A stretch of DNA of 49,536 nucleotides from Chitinophaga pinensis. Lineage in GTDB: Bacteria; Bacteroidota; Bacteroidia; Chitinophagales; Chitinophagaceae. Shown piece by piece: positions 26,039-48,822 of this stretch; the stretch's first letter is position 1, and every line of letters begins with the position of its first letter. The translations under genes and the position numbers were made by a program. Location: contig CAMDFC010000009.1 in the NCBI GenBank assembly GCA_945897185.1, forward strand, positions 1 through 49,536, given 5' to 3'. The notes beneath the pieces are model-generated. The model did not search any database, was not told the origin of the DNA, and was given only the letters and a program-made list of their open reading frames with translations.

Positions 26039-27067
26039 ATGTTTAATATGATTTTTGATAGGTCCCAATTTAAGCAAGTAGTTTTCATAGTATTATTCTT
26101 TTTGATGCTCTCTGGCTGTGGAGTTGCTCAAAGCGATCCTGAGCGCACGCAAAAGGAAAACGAGGTGGTAGTAGACAATAAACCTGTTTTAGATTCGGTC
26201 AACTTTAAAGTACGTATGATTTCCATCGCCAATGGAGATAGTACAGGCAAATGGAAATTTGCAGAGCAATATTCAAAAGTGGGTGCTATTCTACCTTTTT
26301 ATCGTGTTATTGCCTATTATGGCAATCTTTACTCAACCAGGATGGGTATTCTTGGCGAGCTGCCAAAGAAAGAAATGTTTGCCAGATTAAGGGAGGAGGT
26401 AATGGCCTGGGAAAAAGCAGATCCAACAACGCCAGTAATGCCAGCCTTACACTATATCGTTACAACCGCTCAAGAATCCCCAGGATCTACGGGTAAGTAT
26501 AGACTTCGTATGCCCAATGCTGAAATTGATAAAGTAATGGCCATGGCAGAAGAAATTAATGCGATTGTATTTCTAGATATACAGGTTGGATTAAGCAGCC
26601 TCAAGGAAGAAATTCCAGTTATTGAAAAATACCTAAAACATCCTCGTGTTCATTTGGGTATTGATCCGGAGTTTTCAATGAAAGGGGGGCAAAAACCAGG
26701 TACCGTTATTGGTAGTTTTGATGCATCGGATATCAACTATGCAGCATCTTATTTGGCGGATCTTGTAAAGAAAAACGACCTGCCTCCTAAAATTCTTGTG
26801 ATCCATAGATTTACGCAAGGCATGCTAAAAGAGTACAATCAAATTAAAAATATCCCGGAAGTACAATTTGTTTTAGATATGGATGGTTGGGGTTCTCCTG
26901 CTAGAAAAATTAATACGTATAAGCTGTTTGCAAACCGCGAGCCCATTCAGTTTACCGGCTTTAAATTGTTTTATAAAAATGATTTGAAGGAAGCGCCACA
27001 TCGGTTACTCACCATTAAGGAATTACTTGCGCTAAAGCCGATTCCATTATATATTCAATATCAATGA
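26039..27067 (+). CDS. Lipoprotein with a probable TIM-barrel-like domain
   Basis: 342 aa. The hydrophobic N-terminus ends in LSGC (Cys27), a good lipobox. The rest has alternating helices and short hydrophobic strands (AILPFYRVIAYYG, MPALHYIVT, AIVFLDIQVG, VHLGIDPEFSM, PKILVIHRFTQ, VQFVLDMDGWG), the rhythm of a (beta/alpha)8 barrel. Acidic residues at strand ends (D in LDIQ, D and E in IDPEF, D in LDMDG) could form a polar pocket. No catalytic family is assigned. The start could also be the ATG three codons later. It follows the secreted-protein gene by six bases. Confidence 0.7.
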   Translation: MFNMIFDRSQFKQVVFIVLFFLMLSGCGVAQSDPERTQKENEVVVDNKPVLDSVNFKVRMISIANGDSTGKWKFAEQYSKVGAILPFYRVIAYYGNLYSTRMGILGELPKKEMFARLREEVMAWEKADPTTPVMPALHYIVTTAQESPGSTGKYRLRMPNAEIDKVMAMAEEINAIVFLDIQVGLSSLKEEIPVIEKYLKHPRVHLGIDPEFSMKGGQKPGTVIGSFDASDINYAASYLADLVKKNDLPPKILVIHRFTQGMLKEYNQIKNIPEVQFVLDMDGWGSPARKINTYKLFANREPIQFTGFKLFYKNDLKEAPHRLLTIKELLALKPIPLYIQYQ

Positions 27068-42135: not shown

Positions 42136-42786
42136 TTAGTCGATCATGTTGTTTTTGACTGCAAAAAATACAAGTCCAGCTGTATTCTTTAGTCCAAATC
42201 TTTCCATCAAACGGTCCTTGATAGATTCCACAGTCCTTGGAGAGATTTCCATTTTTATTGCAATCTCAGAGGCGGTAAACTCCATGCAAAGCAAACGGAC
42301 TACCTCTTTTTCTTTGTCAGACATCACAATTTCGTTGTTCAGTGATGGAATGGTTTTGGCTCTGTTGGCTGATTTCTTTAGTAAAACCCGGTTTACGAAA
42401 TTGTTGAGGTAATAACCCCTTGCCATTACTTCCATAATGGCTTTCTTTATTTCTGAAGGCTCTGCATTTTTTAGCATGTAGCCGTTGGCCCCATTTTCCA
42501 TTAAGTGAGAAACAAAGCGCTCGTCTTCAAACATGGTAAGGATCAAGACTTTTACATCGGGGTATTTCTTACTGACTTCCTTTGTGGTTTCGATGCCATC
42601 TTTACCGGGCATTCTCAAATCCATCAATACTACATCGGGTTGAGTGGTTTCAAGTTCTTTCAATAACTCTTCACCATTTTCTGCTTCAAAAACAAAAGAA
42701 ATGTTGGTGTATTGTCTGAGGGATAGAATGACCCCTTTTCTAAAAATTTTGTGGTCGTCAGCAATTCCAACCGTGATGGTATTCAT
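42136..42786 (-). CDS. NarL/LuxR-type response regulator (RR-A), cognate to the kinase at 42834-43667
   Basis: 216 aa. Receiver domain with acidic pocket ADDH and phosphoacceptor Asp56 in LMDLRMPG, then a LuxR-type helix-turn-helix (LSDKEKEVVRLLC...SPRTVESIKDRL). A DNA-binding transcription factor, active as a phosphorylated dimer in this family. Third gene of the operon membrane protein, kinase, regulator; 47 bases separate it from the kinase gene. Targets unknown. Confidence 0.93.
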   Translation of the reverse strand: MNTITVGIADDHKIFRKGVILSLRQYTNISFVFEAENGEELLKELETTQPDVVLMDLRMPGKDGIETTKEVSKKYPDVKVLILTMFEDERFVSHLMENGANGYMLKNAEPSEIKKAIMEVMARGYYLNNFVNRVLLKKSANRAKTIPSLNNEIVMSDKEKEVVRLLCMEFTASEIAIKMEISPRTVESIKDRLMERFGLKNTAGLVFFAVKNNMID

Positions 42787-42833
42787 TTCAGGACAGTTTG
42801 TTTAAGTCATTAGACTTGCACAAAGATACTACA

Positions 42834-43667
42834 TCAAACATTAGGTTCGATGGACAAAGGCATTTCAAGCGTTACCTTGAAAAAGGTTTGTGAGGGATCA
42901 CGCTCAAAATTAACATTACCTTCCAAGACCTTCATTCTGCTCATGATGTTTTTGAGTCCTAATCCAACAGAACTTTTGTTCATTTTTTCAAAATCACTTT
43001 GGGTTATACCCTTGCCGTCGTGGTTAAGCCTAATGTAGAATTTATTGTCGGTAATATTTTGGGATAAATTGATGAAACTCGCACTGCTGTGTTTTAAAAT
43101 ATTGTTGACCAATTCCTGCGTTACACGGAAAATTAGTAATTCAACTTGGGGCAAAAGACGTTCTTTGTAGTTGTGAAACTTGCAACTGGCATTAATAGCA
43201 CCAGAACCATTTATTTTTTGAAACAAATCACTCACAGCAGATTCCAAACCAAAATTTTTGAGGGTAGGAGGCATGAGGCTATGGGAAATATTCCTGATCA
43301 ACTGAATTGTATCGTCTATGATGTGTTTGGCACTTGAAATACTCTGTAATTGACTAGCTATATCCAAGTTAACTAAGTTGTCGTTTAGATAAAGTCTGGC
43401 TGTAGCCAATAGCGGACCAGCATCGTCGTGAAGATCTGCTGCAATTCGCTGCCTTTCTTCTTCCTGCCACCTAATTGAAGCATTTAAAAGAATTTGCTGT
43501 TTTTCCTCCTCCATAAACTGCAATTGTTGCTGATACTTAATCACTTTACGCTGGTGAAAAACGATAAATGCAATTAAACCAATAGCCAAAACAAGCATAC
43601 CTAAAGTACCAAAAAATAGTACCATTGATACATTCGATTGAGATTCTATGGTTTGTAGAAAATACAT
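42834..43667 (-). CDS. HisKA_3-type sensor histidine kinase with one membrane helix (HK-1)
   Basis: 277 aa. A single N-terminal helix (about residues 15-37), a coiled-coil-like stretch (YQQQLQFMEEEKQQILL), the HisKA_3 dimerisation helix with His80 in ADLHDDAGPL, and a C-terminal ATPase domain with N box QELVNNILKH and G2 box GLGLKNIMSRM. There is no periplasmic, PAS, GAF or TPR sensor domain, so input must come from elsewhere. The ATG follows the stop of the seven-helix protein gene without a gap, which points to that protein as the sensor. Confidence 0.9.
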   Translation of the reverse strand: MYFLQTIESQSNVSMVLFFGTLGMLVLAIGLIAFIVFHQRKVIKYQQQLQFMEEEKQQILLNASIRWQEEERQRIAADLHDDAGPLLATARLYLNDNLVNLDIASQLQSISSAKHIIDDTIQLIRNISHSLMPPTLKNFGLESAVSDLFQKINGSGAINASCKFHNYKERLLPQVELLIFRVTQELVNNILKHSSASFINLSQNITDNKFYIRLNHDGKGITQSDFEKMNKSSVGLGLKNIMSRMKVLEGNVNFERDPSQTFFKVTLEMPLSIEPNV

Positions 43668-44288
43668 TTATGCTTTTTGGAGTTGTGTATATGGTTTAAA
43701 TGGAAGTTTATTTTCAAAAATCATTCCAACACTAAAAAGACAGTACGAAATTATTTTGAAAGAAGCTAGTATATAACTGTAGGTTTTGGAAAATCCGGAG
43801 TTGTTAAAATTCGATTCTGATAGAATAAATAAAAAGAAAGTTCCTGAAAAGAATAACACTAAACCTATTGATATCCATATAGAAGAAACATTGTAATCTT
43901 CATTTTTGATTATCCTTTCATATAACAAAAGGACAGAAGAGGATAAAATTAAAATTGATTCAACACCAGTTGGTATTGAATCAAACTCATTTAAGGTTCC
44001 TGTGGCGATATCAAAAATTACGAATAGAGAAAAAATTAAACTAGAAATTTTTATAAACGTGCGATAGTTAGAAGAAATAAGCTCTTTAAAGAGATAAATT
44101 GAAAGTAGGAAAAATTCAATTATTGTAAAAAGTCTATAACTGTAAATCTCTGATTGAAAATACTTTAGACTTAATTTATTTAGAACTAGATCAGTGAGTA
44201 TGCTATAAAACAAGTAAATGGCCAAAAGCCACAAGCTATGTGTCTTTTTCTTAATTGAAAAAAACAGTGCTAGTGGCAGTAGTACCAA
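43668..44288 (-). CDS. Seven-helix membrane protein, putative sensor of HK-1 (7TM-1); 5' end probably frameshifted
   Basis: The coordinates use the first in-frame start (TTG, 44288), but that cuts the first helix. The same frame continues upstream to base 44333 as hydrophobic sequence (LNSITSYLILFSILLV), with no ATG, GTG or TTG. An ATG at 44353 in the next frame reads MFIFVKQ and would join this frame after a -1 shift or one extra A at 44331-44334. With that extension seven helices are visible and the protein is about 228 aa. It resembles the protein at 47214-47882: TM2 LF(Y)SI-x-D, TM3 with E-F-x-[LI]-[LI]-S, TM5 starting TGVE. No named family is recognised. Confidence 0.75.
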   Translation of the reverse strand: MVLLPLALFFSIKKKTHSLWLLAIYLFYSILTDLVLNKLSLKYFQSEIYSYRLFTIIEFFLLSIYLFKELISSNYRTFIKISSLIFSLFVIFDIATGTLNEFDSIPTGVESILILSSSVLLLYERIIKNEDYNVSSIWISIGLVLFFSGTFFLFILSESNFNNSGFSKTYSYILASFKIISYCLFSVGMIFENKLPFKPYTQLQKA

Positions 44289-44323
44289 AAGAATTGAGAA
44301 TAAAATTAGATATGAGGTTATAC

Positions 44324-44342
44324 TGTTAAGTTTTGCTTAACA
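44324..44342. other. Hairpin spanning the putative frameshift of 7TM-1
   Basis: TGTTAAG-TTTTG-CTTAACA, perfect 7-bp arms. On the minus strand the loop is CAAAA, exactly where the two frames would need to be joined. No T-run follows, so it is not a standard terminator for the gene upstream. Confidence 0.45.
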
Positions 44343-44375
44343 AATATAAACATTAAAAAAATGAAATGGAAGTTT

Positions 44376-44741
44376 TTAGAAATCAAACCATCCTTGAACA
44401 ACCTTGCTTCTGTCTGCAACAATGCCATCAGTTTTGGTTAATTGACCAACTGAATTGATAAGTTGATTCTCAAGAATTGGTTGATTTTCTTTGTCCAAAC
44501 CAACCAAAACGTAGGTTTTTTCACCTTTCTCATTGATCGCTTTAAATATATTGATGCCAATACAATCTGGCTGGTTTAAAATTTGCTCCAGTATGTTTTT
44601 TCCGACAAATTGCGCATTTCCCTCTCCAAAAGCATCATAATGGTCTTTCACCATTTTTAGCCCCAAATCATAACCAATATGTTCACCGGCTTTCTCAGTG
44701 AGCAATTTCTCTTCAAGAATTTCAACATTACTTTTAAACAT
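44376..44741 (-). CDS. Conserved hypothetical protein of Bacteroidota type
   Basis: 121 aa, soluble, acidic, no signal peptide. The segment LNQPDCIGINIFKAINEKGEKTYVLVG has the pattern of small Bacteroidota proteins of unknown function (...QPxCxGIRIYxAxNExGExTLVLVG). It lies upstream of 7TM-1 on the same strand with an 87-base gap (22 bases to the possible upstream start of 7TM-1), so co-transcription with the signalling operon is possible. Upstream is the long regulatory region shared with RR-B. Confidence 0.65.
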   Translation of the reverse strand: MFKSNVEILEEKLLTEKAGEHIGYDLGLKMVKDHYDAFGEGNAQFVGKNILEQILNQPDCIGINIFKAINEKGEKTYVLVGLDKENQPILENQLINSVGQLTKTDGIVADRSKVVQGWFDF

Positions 44742-45116
44742 GATAGGATATTTTATGTGGATAATATTTTTTCTAACCTTTTGTAAATCTCACATTGTTC
44801 GTCTTCTAAAAAAAACGGGGCACGTAGATTTACGATTAAATCTGTTCATTAGGTTTTTGTAAAATGATAAAAATCAATTAATTACCAAAAATACAGTAAA
44901 TCATCTTGTAAAAATAAAGGGGATTTATACGTGTTGAATACAGTATTTTTACGGTCTAAGTTATGGGGTTTTTCCCATAAATCGGCTAGAAAAACTACGT
45001 GAGGAATTGTTTTTTTACTTTTTTGTTGGGTGGAGGTATTCATACAACTACCTATTTGTAAAAAATTGTTGCAATTTTGGGTCAATCAGTGCGAAAACTT
45101 AATACAACCTGTGAAT
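44742..45116. promoter_or_regulatory. 375-base intergenic region with dyads between divergent genes
   Basis: No credible gene. It holds two strong dyads: AGATTTA-CGAT-TAAATCT (44826-44843) and TTATGGG-GTTTTT-CCCATAA (44961-44980), plus three TACGTG boxes (reverse at 44821-44826, forward at 44928-44933 and 44996-45001). A near -7 box CAATTTTG lies at 45072-45079. It likely carries control sites for RR-B and the 44376-44741 gene. Confidence 0.4.
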
Positions 45117-45776
45117 ATGTCAGCAATAGAGACGATTAAAGTAGCGTTAGCAGATGATCACAAAATATTTAGAGAAGGTATCAAAATGGCTCTTTCCGGA
45201 AAGGAATACCTAAAAATTATTTGGGAGGCCGAGGATGGTAATGATTTGATTCACAAGATGAAGATAAAGCTACCGGATGTCCTTTTGATGGATATTCGGA
45301 TGCCTGAAATGGATGGTATCAATGCCATTTCTATCTTGAGAAAAGAATACGAAGAGGTTAGAATCATTGTTTTGACTATGTATGATGATCAGGAAATGAT
45401 CTCAAAAATGATGGAAATGGGAGCCAATGCTTATTTAACAAAAACCACAGATCCTGAAGAGATTTATAATGCCATTCTCACGTGCATGAATGATGATTTC
45501 TATTTTAACGACCTGTTGAATAAGGCTGTGTTAATGAAGTTGCAACAGAAAAAAACAACAAGGCAGTTTTATCCTAATCCAGTAAAATTTACGGAGAAAG
45601 AAATTAATATTTTAAAATTAATTGCTCAAGACAAGACAACTGAAGAAATTTCAAAAGAAGTATATCTTTCCCCAAGAACAATTGAGACCATCAGACAAAA
45701 TATGAAAACCAAAGTGGGGGTGAAGACCATTGCTGGCCTTATTATGTATGGCACGAGAAATAAATTGATTGATTAA
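45117..45776 (+). CDS. Orphan NarL/LuxR-type response regulator (RR-B)
   Basis: 219 aa from the ATG giving MSAIETIKVALADDH; an ATG 29 codons earlier would add a tail outside the receiver fold and is not used. Phosphoacceptor Asp59 in LMDIRMPEMDG; LuxR helix-turn-helix near the end (FTEKEINILKLIA...SPRTIETIRQNM). No kinase is beside it on the same strand. Its stop overlaps the convergent RR-C gene by four bases. It may be phosphorylated by HK-1 or HK-2. Confidence 0.9.
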   Translation: MSAIETIKVALADDHKIFREGIKMALSGKEYLKIIWEAEDGNDLIHKMKIKLPDVLLMDIRMPEMDGINAISILRKEYEEVRIIVLTMYDDQEMISKMMEMGANAYLTKTTDPEEIYNAILTCMNDDFYFNDLLNKAVLMKLQQKKTTRQFYPNPVKFTEKEINILKLIAQDKTTEEISKEVYLSPRTIETIRQNMKTKVGVKTIAGLIMYGTRNKLID

Positions 45777-46429
45777 ATCGATACAATACCGTGTTTGATG
45801 GCATACATGGCCAATCCAACCCTGCTTTTTACATCGAGTCTGGTAAATAAGTTGTCTCTCATGCCATCTATTGCCCGGGGGTTCATTTTTAGCTGCACTG
45901 CAACTTCTTTGTAAGTCAGTTCCGAGCAAACAAATTTCAAAAACTCTATTTCTTGGTCGGAAATTAAGATTTTGTCAATTGCATGAGCAGATTGTTCGTC
46001 TCTAAATAAGCCAGCCAGTTTACTGCTAGTTTGCGCTGAATAGTAATAGCCCTGCTCATGTACAGTTTGAATTGCGTGCATTAATTCTGTTGGATGGATG
46101 TCTTTTTTCATAAAACCTTTTACCCCTGCTTTTAAAAGTCTAATTAGTGCCAGCTCTGAATCATACATTGTAAGCATGATCACTTTTATCTCAGGATGGT
46201 TTTTTTGCAAGTACAAAGCAGTTTGATGACCGTCCATTTCTGGCATGTTTAAATCTAATATTACCAAATCAGGCGGGGTTGAAATTTTTATTTTACTAAT
46301 TAATTCTTTTCCATTGGAGCACTCTATAACAACCGAACAATTGTCAGAGTGATTTATTAAAGAAGCAAGCGCATTTCTCAATAAGATATGGTCGTCAACC
46401 ATGGCAACTTTAATTAATTCTTTTTTCAT
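45773..46429 (-). CDS. NarL/LuxR-type response regulator (RR-C), cognate to the kinase at 46426-47232
   Basis: 218 aa. Acidic pair VDDH, phosphoacceptor Asp59 in VILDLNMPEMDG, and LuxR helix-turn-helix ISDQEIEFLKFVC...NPRAIDGMRDNL. The turn SPRTxE of the other three regulators is NPRAID here, so its DNA contacts may differ. The ATG overlaps the kinase stop by 4 bases, implying coupled translation. Third gene of the second membrane-protein/kinase/regulator operon. Confidence 0.92.
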   Translation of the reverse strand: MKKELIKVAMVDDHILLRNALASLINHSDNCSVVIECSNGKELISKIKISTPPDLVILDLNMPEMDGHQTALYLQKNHPEIKVIMLTMYDSELALIRLLKAGVKGFMKKDIHPTELMHAIQTVHEQGYYYSAQTSSKLAGLFRDEQSAHAIDKILISDQEIEFLKFVCSELTYKEVAVQLKMNPRAIDGMRDNLFTRLDVKSRVGLAMYAIKHGIVSI

Positions 46430-47232
46430 TTGTTTTTTGTGTTTAGGGGTATAGAAATCAAAATGGTTGTTCCACTGTTTTCTTGAGAAATAATTTCAAA
46501 TTTTCCACCAACAATTTCTGATCGAGAGTAAACGTTTTTTAATCCCGACATCTTTCTAATTTGTTTTTTTTGATTTACTTTTATTTGATCAAATCCAATG
46601 CCATTGTCAATTACTTTCATTTTAAATAAGTCTGGCTCATAATATAGTTCAACTCTGATGTTGTTGGCTTGCGCATGTTTAAGAATATTGTTGCAAGCTT
46701 CTTGCATAATTCTTAATATAACCAAGTCCATCTTCTGGTCTAAGAAAAAGGGATCCCCAATTATTACTAAATCCACATCGTATATACCTGTTTTTCTGAG
46801 AACACTTATTTCGGACTCAATAGCGTTAATTAGACCATACTCAAGTAGTTGATTTCCGTCGAGTGATTTTGAAATATCGTTTAGGTCAATCAACGACTTA
46901 CTTATTAAATCGACTGCAAGTATTAATTTTTCTTGATTCTGTTCTTTTTTGTCTATGTAATTAGTGATCTGTAATTTGGCAAGCGTTAATCCTAGTGAGA
47001 TATTGTCATGAATTTCAGATGATATCTGGTTAAATGTGGTTTCTTGAATTTCTATTTTAGTTTCAAGTATTTTATTTTCAAAATCAAGTTTTAGTAATTC
47101 AATTCTTTGGGTTGACTCATATAATCCCTTTTTATATTTTTCAATTAGAAATAATATAGTAATTGCTAGTCCAAGAACAATCAATGAACTTAGTAATGTA
47201 ATGACAATAATTTTTAATTCCTCGTCTGCCAT
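46426..47232 (-). CDS. HisKA_3-type sensor histidine kinase with one membrane helix (HK-2)
   Basis: 268 aa. One N-terminal helix (residues 7-30), a coiled-coil-like linker (STQRIELLKLDFENKILETK), phosphoacceptor His75 in SSEIHDNISLGL, N box RIMQEACNNILKHA, G1 DNGIGFD and G2 MSGLKNVYSRS. No sensor domain is present. It starts 19 bases inside the end of the seven-helix gene and overlaps RR-C by 4 bases, the tightest operon of the window. Confidence 0.92.
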   Translation of the reverse strand: MADEELKIIVITLLSSLIVLGLAITILFLIEKYKKGLYESTQRIELLKLDFENKILETKIEIQETTFNQISSEIHDNISLGLTLAKLQITNYIDKKEQNQEKLILAVDLISKSLIDLNDISKSLDGNQLLEYGLINAIESEISVLRKTGIYDVDLVIIGDPFFLDQKMDLVILRIMQEACNNILKHAQANNIRVELYYEPDLFKMKVIDNGIGFDQIKVNQKKQIRKMSGLKNVYSRSEIVGGKFEIISQENSGTTILISIPLNTKNK

Positions 47233-47882
47233 TTTATTGATTTGATTATCGAGAAAAAAAGTGCTAAGTAAGCAATGTTACTTAGAAAGCTTAGCGAACC
47301 AATGATATTATTTGGTTTTGAAGATATTATTTGGAAGATTATATAATAGGGTGAAGCAATATTGATAAATAGGAATAAACCTATAGCAATGATTCTTTCA
47401 CTTTTTGCTCTTAATTCTGATTGGTCATGGGAAATTGAAAGCAAAAATCTAATGGTGAAAGTGTTTATAAAAATTAATTCAACACCAGTAAAAATTGTAT
47501 AGTAGGATTGTGTAAAATCCCAATCTTTTAAAAAAGTTAAGAATCCAAGTAAAAATAGAGAGATACAGATATATCTAGTTAATATTTTTTTATTTTTTAT
47601 ACCATTTATTTCAAAAAGAAAATTTGAGATAATAATAAATTCAACAAAGATGTAAATTAATTGCCACCATTTACTAATAGCAAAAAAGAATTCATTTCGT
47701 TTAAAAATAATGATCGTTACAATGTAAATAAGAGAATCAATAATAGAAAATAGTGACAAATACCAAAAGGTTTTTAATGAAAAGGGTTTTATATCATTTC
47801 GAAAACCTATGTAAAAAAGATAGATTGTAGTTAAAAACATAACTACTTTACTTATCCATGAAATTGCTTCTAAGTAAATCAT
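47214..47882 (-). CDS. Seven-helix membrane protein, putative sensor of HK-2 (7TM-2)
   Basis: 222 aa, ATG start, seven hydrophobic helices separated by short loops, no signal peptide and no soluble domain, ending in a short basic tail (KWQTRN). Homologous by eye to 7TM-1: LFSIIDSL in TM2, FVEFIIIS in TM3, TGVELIFIN in TM5. Acidic residues inside helices (D of TM2, E of TM3, E of TM5) are conserved between the two and are candidates for ligand or ion sensing. No known family is recognised. The gene overlaps HK-2, so the two products are probably made in equal amounts and interact. Confidence 0.8.
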   Translation of the reverse strand: MIYLEAISWISKVVMFLTTIYLFYIGFRNDIKPFSLKTFWYLSLFSIIDSLIYIVTIIIFKRNEFFFAISKWWQLIYIFVEFIIISNFLFEINGIKNKKILTRYICISLFLLGFLTFLKDWDFTQSYYTIFTGVELIFINTFTIRFLLSISHDQSELRAKSERIIAIGLFLFINIASPYYIIFQIISSKPNNIIGSLSFLSNIAYLALFFSIIKSIKWQTRN

Positions 47883-48150: not shown

Positions 48151-48822
48151 ATGACCGAACAAATTAAGGTAGTTATAGCTGATGATCATGTGCTTTTTCG
48201 TGCAGGTGTCAAAGCCGCGCTTTCTGCGCATAAAGACATCAAAATGATTGCTGAGGCAGATAATGGCATGCAATTGCTGACTATCCTTAAGCACATTAAC
48301 CCGGATGTGATCTTATTGGATATTCAAATGCCAATCATGGATGGAATTGCTACACTTCCTGAAATTAAAAAGTTGTATCCTGATGTGAAGGTCATTATGC
48401 TTACCATGCACAACGACCATTCTATGATTTCCAAATTGATGGAGCTGGGAGCTAATTCTTATTTAACCAAGAATTCAGATTCTGAAATTATTTATCAGGC
48501 GGTAAAGACTGTCCATGAGCAGGAATACTTTTTCAATCAGCTTACCAATAAAGCGTTGATTGATGGCCTAAGAATAAAACGTCAGGTAGAGGCTACGCTG
48601 CCCACTGATGCAAAATTGACTGACAAAGAAATTTCTATACTTAGGATGATTTGTGAAGAAAAGAGTACAAAAGAAATTGCCGATTTGGTTGATTTGAGTC
48701 CGCGTACCGTGGAAGCAATTCGCGACAAGCTCAAGGTAAAGACAGGTGCAAAATCTCTGGCAGGTCTGGTGATGTATGCGGTAAAATCGGGCATCATCGA
48801 GAACCGACCCTTCGCCAATTAA
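48151..48822 (+). CDS. Orphan NarL/LuxR-type response regulator (RR-D)
   Basis: 223 aa. Acidic pair ADDH, phosphoacceptor Asp57 in LLDIQMPIMDG, LuxR helix-turn-helix LTDKEISILRMIC...SPRTVEAIRDKL. Closest in feel to RR-B, sharing LMELGANSYLTKNSD versus MMEMGANAYLTKTTD. Transcribed divergently from the second signalling operon and followed by the photolyase gene 46 bases downstream. No kinase is adjacent on its strand. Confidence 0.92.
   Translation: MTEQIKVVIADDHVLFRAGVKAALSAHKDIKMIAEADNGMQLLTILKHINPDVILLDIQMPIMDGIATLPEIKKLYPDVKVIMLTMHNDHSMISKLMELGANSYLTKNSDSEIIYQAVKTVHEQEYFFNQLTNKALIDGLRIKRQVEATLPTDAKLTDKEISILRMICEEKSTKEIADLVDLSPRTVEAIRDKLKVKTGAKSLAGLVMYAVKSGIIENRPFAN

Follow-up and report, generated by a model that had tools for sequence, protein, structure and literature searches.

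What does a seven-transmembrane (7TM) protein contribute when its gene stands, separately, just upstream of a histidine kinase (HK) that lacks a sensor domain? The question is raised by a stretch of Chitinophaga pinensis DNA (contig CAMDFC010000009.1, positions 1 to 49,536; 49,536 nucleotides (nt), here called the window, whose numbering is used throughout), in which two operons encode, in the same order, a 7TM protein, a kinase and a NarL-type response regulator (RR). We hold, with somewhat more belief than doubt, that the best reading of this locus is a split signalling system in which peptide ligand, 7TM receptor, kinase and regulator are separate gene products, with a diversification resembling that of pherotypes.

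A conserved receptor, kinase and regulator

The first operon, on the minus strand, comprises receptor 1 (7TM-1; 43668..44321, 217 amino acids, with a predicted ATA start codon at 44321-44319), HK1 (42834..43667; one membrane helix, a linker, and HisKA_3 and HATPase_c domains) and the NarL/LuxR-type regulator RR1 (42136..42786). The second, on the same strand, comprises receptor 2 (7TM-2; 47214..47882, 222 amino acids, ATG start), HK2 (46426..47232; one membrane helix and a kinase core) and the NarL-type RR2 (45773..46429). In both kinases the helix is N-terminal and is followed by a linker and then the core. The original prediction, made from the DNA letters alone, had described two operons of this common order; their open reading frames (ORFs) lie where it placed them, and when the sequences are set against model helices both 7TM proteins have the motifs it named (an Asp in transmembrane helix (TM) 2, a Glu in TM3 and TGVE in TM5). 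Its statement that the genes abut or overlap holds for receptor 1 and HK1 (abutting), receptor 2 and HK2 (19 nt of overlap) and HK2 and RR2 (4 nt), but HK1 and RR1 are separated by a 47-nt gap. Likewise, of the two kinases assigned to HisKA_3, HK1 matches both HisKA_3 and HATPase_c above cut-off, whereas HK2 does so for HATPase_c only, with HisKA_3 falling below (E 0.022). HK1 is 57-75% identical to 18 relatives, and H80, N189, D217/G218/G220 and G235/G237 are invariant in 19 sequences; Response_reg and GerE are above cut-off (Pfam) in RR1 and RR2 and in two further regulators of the cluster, RR3 and RR4. The phosphoacceptor His, ATPase boxes, receiver and GerE domain of a two-component system with a HisKA_3 kinase and a NarL-type regulator are therefore all present.

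The 7TM proteins had been taken for members of an unrecognised family, and indeed neither matches Pfam or NCBIfam up to E 1. Among 53 relatives of receptor 1, two match 7TMR-DISM_7TM (PF07695) weakly (best E 1.8e-4; the window proteins not at all) and one matches HisKA_7TM (PF16927) at E 0.027, a family whose members are fused to the kinase, unlike the separate genes here. Sequence searches of the PDB gave no convincing relative (one match at E 1 for one protein and none for the other). Compared with each other by BLASTP, the two receptors yield chance-level pieces only (best E 0.28); profile-profile comparison gives a probability of 99.1 and E 1.1e-18, and indicates that they are remote homologues of old paralogy. 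The operons, originally called duplicated, are thus homologous in their 7TM proteins, but as diverged paralogues and not as recent copies.

Relatives of receptor 1 occur in 63 of 147 genomes of the family (E 0.01), and its profile matches 52 of 395 genomes of the phylum (E 0.001); receptor 2, used as a single-sequence query, gave plausible matches only in its own genome and one other of the 147. As predicted, homologues adjoin kinases in other genomes. In three receptor-anchored sets of loci, which include the window itself and share some genomes, a kinase lies directly 3′ of the receptor in 30/30, 33/34 and 26/30 judged loci, and a regulator comes next after the kinase in 29, 32 and 22 of them (four of the 38 loci in the second set, L061, L070, L073 and L077, had no 7TM profile match and were left unjudged). 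The second-set locus without a kinase is L067; in the third set, L182 and L184 have a kinase ORF that overlaps by more than our adjacency rule permitted, and L176 and L187 have no kinase within the 1.5-kb flank. Conversely, when the search was anchored on HK1 (the best 80 of 389 confirmed relatives), a 7TM gene lay just 5′ of the kinase in 79 of 80 loci, the exception (L080) having only 151 nt of 5′ sequence. The named HK1 relatives among these best 80 belong to Chitinophagaceae genera and to metagenome-assembled genomes labelled Chitinophagaceae, Chitinophagales, Sphingobacteriales or Bacteroidetes, which points to a host within the Chitinophagaceae, and relatives of receptor 2 are located 5′ of HK2-like kinases. 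By this comparison of loci, the seven-helix protein, the sensorless HisKA_3-type kinase and the NarL-type regulator behave as one conserved unit.

A small gene upstream of receptor 1

Between receptor 1 and the divergent regulator RR3 lies a small gene (minus strand, 44376..44741) whose 121-amino-acid product is a candidate ligand precursor; like the hypervariable stretch and the non-AUG start described below, it had escaped the original prediction. A homologue of this protein is encoded just 5′ of the receptor 1 promoter in 53 of 102 loci; it is about 118-137 amino acids long (longer with upstream starts in three) and consists of a conserved domain of ~100 amino acids ending in GIVADR, followed by a tail of very variable length that has a Trp near its end in nearly all members and reads GWFDF in the window. 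Of 98 genomes of the family, 22 have the gene, and by coordinates it adjoins a receptor 1 match in 17 of these; searches of Pfam, NCBIfam and the PDB gave its product no convincing relative. Its place is taken in 33 of the remaining 49 loci (33/102) by an ORF of 15-26 amino acids, typically of the form MKK/MKR...Trp-Glu/Asp: 25/33 begin with MKK or MKR, and 30/33 end in Trp plus an acid, as against 53 of 8517 control short ORFs, although here the Trp, unlike the acid and the Lys-rich start, was touched by the way the peptides were selected. Immediately before the ATG, both kinds of gene commonly have TTAC (28/33 for the tiny peptides and 26/53 for the small proteins, compared with 31/414 kinase and regulator controls), which suggests one ancestral gene. 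Comparison thus points to a small gene, encoding either a Trp-tailed protein or a peptide of 15-26 amino acids, preceding receptor 1 in most Chitinophagaceae loci.

The tiny ORF would also suit a cis-acting leader (an attenuator or upstream ORF) that controls receptor translation and whose peptide has no function of its own: it is very short, and in the 33 loci a gap of 29-88 nt lies between its end and the -7 box of the receptor. We regard this as quite improbable: a promoter-like element sits between the tiny ORF and the receptor, the conserved protein of ~120 amino acids is encoded there instead in 53 loci, and the body of the peptide is hypervariable.

Several features of the DNA around these genes may be recorded here. 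Palindromes (such as GAATCGATTC, AAATCGATTT and CAAATTAATTTG) occur ~20-40 nt 5′ of the tiny-peptide ATG (for example in L014, L127 and L151) and could be a regulator site. Upstream of the 120-amino-acid gene (for example in L007, L096 and L118) there is a T tract, a GGAGGT-like stretch and ACCTC near the ATG, an arrangement that could form a hairpin or reflect a variable homopolymer. No significant family came out of the Rfam search, nor of the structure searches made with the receptor models.

Diversification of the small gene and receptor

If the small gene encodes a ligand for receptor 1, the two might change together, and loci with closely related kinases are informative on this point. 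In 337 pairs of loci the kinases share at least 86% identity, and values were computed for the 22 closest of these. In L022/L116 the kinase and regulator are both 100% identical and the receptor 43%; in L127/L128 the figures are 100%, 100% and 62%; in L141/L145, 100%, 97% and 50%; and in L013/L098, 100%, 99% and 58%, with the small protein at 69%. For L141/L145, nonsynonymous and synonymous divergence (dN and dS) are 0.47 and 1.10 in the receptor as against 0.00 and 0.43 in the kinase, and the higher receptor dS suggests replacement by recombination as well as selection. The DNA profile of this pair runs at 0.88-0.98 until 100 nt before the -7 box, falls to 0.44-0.73 for the following 700 nt, which take in peptide and receptor, and then returns to 0.85-0.99 through kinase and regulator. 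Clear profiles of this kind (high on the 5′ side, 0.44-0.73 over the peptide gene and receptor, and high again in the kinase) were seen in three of seven pairs (L022/L116, L141/L145 and L013/L098, the low stretch in the last being the end of the small protein and most of the receptor); in these three the putative ligand-receptor block is more variable than the flanking kinase and regulator DNA, as in agr-type pherotypes.

Peptide distance also follows receptor distance when kinase distance is allowed for (partial r 0.44 for 32 tiny peptides; 0/2000 permutations), as does the distance of the small-protein domain (partial r 0.37, n=52; 0/2000 permutations). Within the window's genus, HK1 is present in 21 of 41 genomes; among the matches listed, eleven receptors of useful length are 34-52% identical to that of the window and the kinases 75-84%. 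These comparisons indicate that, in some lineages, the small gene and receptor are hypervariable beside a nearly invariant kinase and regulator.

Several observations weigh against a peptide-receptor system. The Trp of the tiny peptides is partly a product of selection because a Trp among the last nine residues was the condition for including the 33, and 16 of 102 loci have neither form of the small gene: ten of these, loci similar to one another, have hydrophobic ORFs of 12-21 amino acids in place of the Trp peptide, and in the remaining six there is no convincing candidate, a hydrophobic ORF or a Trp-less peptide. No consistent peptide gene was found 5′ of receptor 2 (in the window and 18 loci), nor 5′ of orphan or other-family 7TM genes, so the general architecture does not need a peptide; receptor 2 nevertheless diverges fast. 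No protease, maturation enzyme or exporter was found by Pfam among the nine cluster proteins scanned, and the tiny peptides show, by eye, no Sec-type hydrophobic core. Receptors in ordinary pairs are alike (98% in L095/L096, 91% in L012/L143), and the remaining DNA profiles are less clear, with a weaker dip in L127/L128, a low 5′ flank as well in L138/L146 and flat traces in these two ordinary pairs, which served as controls. The tail of the small protein correlates more weakly with receptor distance (partial correlation 0.23; 1/2000), and genes adjacent to each other in a single recombining block correlate whether or not their products bind. Finally, GWFD is kept in 7 of 10 other small proteins of the genus among the matches listed, in genomes whose receptors are only 36-45% identical to that of the window; the tail alone may therefore not set specificity.

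The ten hydrophobic-ORF loci are L125, L135, L139-L141, L145, L149, L150, L152 and L158, and several share a common leader with GTTTA...TAAAC.

Some of these points would suit a 7TM protein that regulates the kinase in an accessory role, like LiaF with LiaS, with the small protein or peptide acting as a modulator inside the cell or in the membrane, nothing secreted and no signalling between cells. The lack of visible export machinery among the scanned cluster proteins, the hydrophobic 12-21-mers of one locus group (which could sit in the membrane) and the tail's conservation across much of the genus all fit such a role, but it is difficult to see why a modulator with no role outside the cell should be so variable next to kinases of 100% identity, and we judge this role unlikely, if worth keeping in mind. 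Alternatively, the peptide made by the small gene could be antimicrobial, and the 7TM protein could provide the matching immunity or self-sensing, with diversification reflecting warfare and not communication. Bacteriocin and immunity pairs do combine a hypervariable peptide with a hypervariable membrane protein; however, the kinase linkage of this 7TM family extends across Bacteroidota and includes loci in which no peptide gene was found, and we consider the antimicrobial explanation improbable.

A probable non-AUG start codon for receptor 1

The original prediction let the first operon begin at 44288, where the receptor 1 ORF (43668-44288, minus strand) has a TTG. This start is probably wrong because the codon falls inside TM1, and the ATA at 44321 is the likelier start; many receptor 1 frames have no ATG, GTG or TTG ahead of TM1. 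Our sample comprised 115 unique genes adjoining HK1, 105 with a readable 5′ part and 102 of these with a TANNTTTG promoter box. In the alignment column of the start (n=105), few members have ATG: ATA occurs 50 times, ATT 13, ATC 6, ATG 3, other codons 23 and a gap 10. No in-frame ATG, GTG or TTG is present in 69 of 102 genes over the stretch that runs from the predicted transcription start to nine codons ahead of a conserved Pro, and an in-frame ATG occurs in 7/102. Even the most generous assignment (n=102) gives ATA 56, TTG 16, ATT 11, ATG 5, GTG 5, ATC 4, CTG 3 and none 2. ATA makes up 29% of Ile codons inside receptor genes but 50/69 at the start column, an enrichment whose p value is too small owing to the relatedness of the genes. 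The partner genes, counted once per locus, start with ATG in 110/113 (HK1) and 111/113 (RR1) cases, two of the 115 loci being unjudged for each, and of the paralogous 7TM genes 50/59 carry an ATG in frame near the same position (some genes enter the count for two loci).

The box is present in 102 of 105 receptor 1 loci, as against 10% of shuffled windows, mostly 14-22 nt 5′ of the start column; in the window it reads TATATTTG (minus strand, 44341..44348) and has the form of a Bacteroidota -7 element. Its flanks include a T 23 nt 5′ in 84/102 and a C just before the box in 56/102, and since the box anchors the logo, only these flanks count as independent there. PMC6847099 gives the position of the Bacteroidota -7 element, with the G of the box at -5, from which the receptor 1 leader would be about 10-18 nt long. 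By comparison, then, receptor 1 appears to have its own promoter-like element and a mostly non-AUG start, ATA being commonest, and the window's receptor 1 likely begins at ATA 44321.

Might translation begin instead at a later TTG, GTG or CTG, or at an unrecognised place? The TTG at 44288 is in frame, and the generous assignment finds a suitable TTG in 16/102 and a GTG in 5/102 loci. Such an artefact nonetheless seems improbable to us, given the 69 genes without a conventional start, the excess of ATA among Ile codons at that column, the ATG found near there in most paralogues, and a model of receptor 1 in which residues 1-10 are packed (mean predicted local distance difference test (pLDDT) 96). 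There is also precedent: PMC13009471 describes AUA starts in Staphylococcus, conserved in ccpN and used by infC, with expression from conserved AUA/AUU starts at roughly one tenth of the AUG level when the medium is poor. Those starts come with strong Shine-Dalgarno pairing, and Bacteroidota mRNAs are described in PMC6847099 as lacking such pairing. We suggest that the ATA start means the receptor to be scarce.

Feedback through initiation factor 3 was also considered and is without support, as infC in the window's genus has an in-frame ATG. In the same-order relatives L191 and L195, infC has no in-frame ATG near the expected start.

An inverted repeat at the receptor 1 promoter

The -7 box and predicted transcription start of receptor 1 are overlaid by an inverted repeat, TGTTAAG-CAAAA-CTTAACA (minus strand, 44324..44342), whose core occurs once in the source genome. 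Repeat scores of at least 7 are found at 39% of 100 distinct sites compared with 6.3% of 730 other TAHHTTTG sites in the loci, and arm matching is 4.83 within a locus as against 3.92 when arms are swapped between loci (standard deviation 0.20). The arms therefore vary between species yet stay complementary, whereas the recognition helices of RR1 and RR3 are nearly constant (19 listed loci, some without a readable helix). Because the helices hardly change while the arms do, RR1 or RR3 as reader of the repeat is not supported as the sole cause. Since transcription is predicted to start within the repeat, an RNA hairpin there is also unlikely.

Receptor fold and topology

AlphaFold2 models, built from 53 (receptor 1) and 22 (receptor 2) aligned sequences, agree with the seven helices originally predicted for both membrane proteins (receptor 1: pLDDT 93.1, predicted template modelling score 0.88, helices from residue 2; receptor 2: pLDDT 87.4). 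Foldseek returned no match at E 0.001 for either model; the highest, non-significant ranks for both were microbial rhodopsins and G protein-coupled receptors (GPCRs), the best being 8rsr for receptor 1 (E 0.092; TM-score up to 0.59 with 8rss) and MRGPRX2 for receptor 2 (E 0.0055). The seven-helix arrangement therefore resembles these proteins, without evidence of descent. Most Lys and Arg residues of receptor 1 lie in loop 1 (3.3 per sequence), loop 2 (1.75) and the C-terminus (3.5), which by the positive-inside rule suggests an outside N-terminus and an inside C-terminus. The outer helix halves are less conserved than the inner (1.74 versus 2.09 bits), and the conserved residues that stand out are TM3 Glu69 (103 sequences), Phe148, Trp149, Phe163 and TM7 Asn193; in the window the Lys of the TM7 Lys-Asn pair is a Ser.

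The rhodopsins among the top ranks raise light sensing as an explanation, which would fit the Lys in TM7 (92 sequences) and the Glu in TM3 (103 sequences) seen among up to 106. We reject it as hardly credible: the TM7 Lys is not invariant, being Arg in eight sequences as well as Ser in the window, and Bac_rhodopsin (PF01036) matches one of 53 relatives, at E 0.025.

Comparison with known signalling systems

In the ComQXPA system of Bacillus, ComX has a Trp near its C-terminus and a polymorphic peptide-receptor block of ComX and ComP lies beside a conserved kinase core. The present locus is alike in both respects and in combining a small peptide gene, a membrane receptor function, a HisKA_3 kinase and a NarL-type regulator; its Trp-ending peptide beside a HisKA_3/NarL pair is a likeness only, drawn without direct sequence comparison to ComP or ComX. 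It differs in having the receptor as a separate protein and in its phylum, and no ComQ-type prenyltransferase was found by Pfam among the nine cluster proteins scanned. The agr groups of Staphylococcus (AgrBDCA) likewise have a hypervariable ligand-receptor block flanked by conserved signalling parts, but AgrC is one polypeptide and AgrA a LytTR regulator, in contrast to the split receptor and kinase and NarL-type regulator here; no AgrB-like protein was detected (Pfam) among the scanned cluster proteins. In 7TMR-DISM and HisKA_7TM receptors a seven-helix sensory part also feeds a kinase, but is fused to the rest of the receptor.

LiaFSR and VraTSR gene order places a membrane protein with the kinase and regulator, and the present locus is similar in grouping a membrane protein with a sensor-poor HisKA_3 kinase and a NarL-type regulator. 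PMC3543457 and PMC7191749 describe LiaF as a separate protein regulating LiaRS. Unlike these systems, the receptors here have seven helices without a soluble domain, together with a small gene and a hypervariable stretch; the Pfam and NCBIfam matches of the 7TM proteins include no LiaF-type family, and HK1 scores 76.6 bits against the LiaS model, which needs 450.

Neighbouring genes

Two NarL-type regulators without a kinase of their own accompany the operons on the plus strand: RR3 (45030..45776, with ATG 45117 the likely real start), divergent from the small-protein and receptor 1 genes, and RR4 (48151..48822), divergent from receptor 2. Both, like the 121-amino-acid gene, belong to the same cluster as the two operons, so that two kinases may serve four regulators. 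Of 61 loci whose sequence extends 3.3 kb to the 5′ side of HK1, 58 have a divergent regulator within that distance, and in many HK1-anchored loci receptor-2/HK2/RR2-like genes lie beyond this regulator. In 18 of the 80 loci (L085-L088, L090-L096, L100, L105, L113, L118, L122, L124 and L154) a third, kinase-less 7TM gene of the same superfamily lies directly 3′ of RR1, with two in L085; those listed have ATG starts. Elsewhere in the window, 19 of 20 other proteins scanned (901-40208) match Pfam and are mostly housekeeping (GTPases, an ammonium transporter, glutamate synthase, glycine dehydrogenase, GMP synthase and 2-oxoglutarate dehydrogenase), the protein at 26039-27067 has no match at E 0.001, and a tRNA-Met lies at 762-834.

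Implications

In the split signalling system that we favour, the peptide, or the tail of the 120-amino-acid protein, would be the ligand of the 7TM receptor, which, as originally proposed, would dock on the single helix of the kinase, and would change its activity; RR1, and perhaps RR3, would then alter transcription. The ATA start would keep the receptor scarce relative to the kinase, the variable stretch would diversify in the manner of agr or ComX/ComP, each lineage responding to a peptide of its own, and the second operon would be a paralogue without a recognisable peptide gene. We infer that the peptide is a receptor ligand; to call it a secreted pheromone goes one step further. The fullest version, a polymorphic peptide-pheromone system of the Chitinophagaceae with a free-standing GPCR-like receptor, a deliberately poor AUA start, an interchangeable invariant kinase and pherotypes, is plausible but tentative, falling somewhat short of probable.

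Our literature search, with subscription papers largely outside its reach, found no description of such a split peptide-7TM system and no peptide quorum sensing of this kind in Bacteroidota; the pairing of a fast-changing peptide gene with a separate 7TM receptor appears to be an undescribed form of bacterial peptide signalling. A family-wide non-AUG start of receptor 1 would escape start callers that expect ATG, GTG or TTG, and would mean that a weak start codon is conserved unusually widely for a bacterial signalling gene. If the proposed system is real, a seven-helix peptide receptor would act on a histidine kinase as a subunit in its own right, the divergent receptors that occur naturally with an identical kinase would be a good system for studying 7TM-to-kinase switching, and the Bacteroidota would gain a peptide-based communication system of their own.

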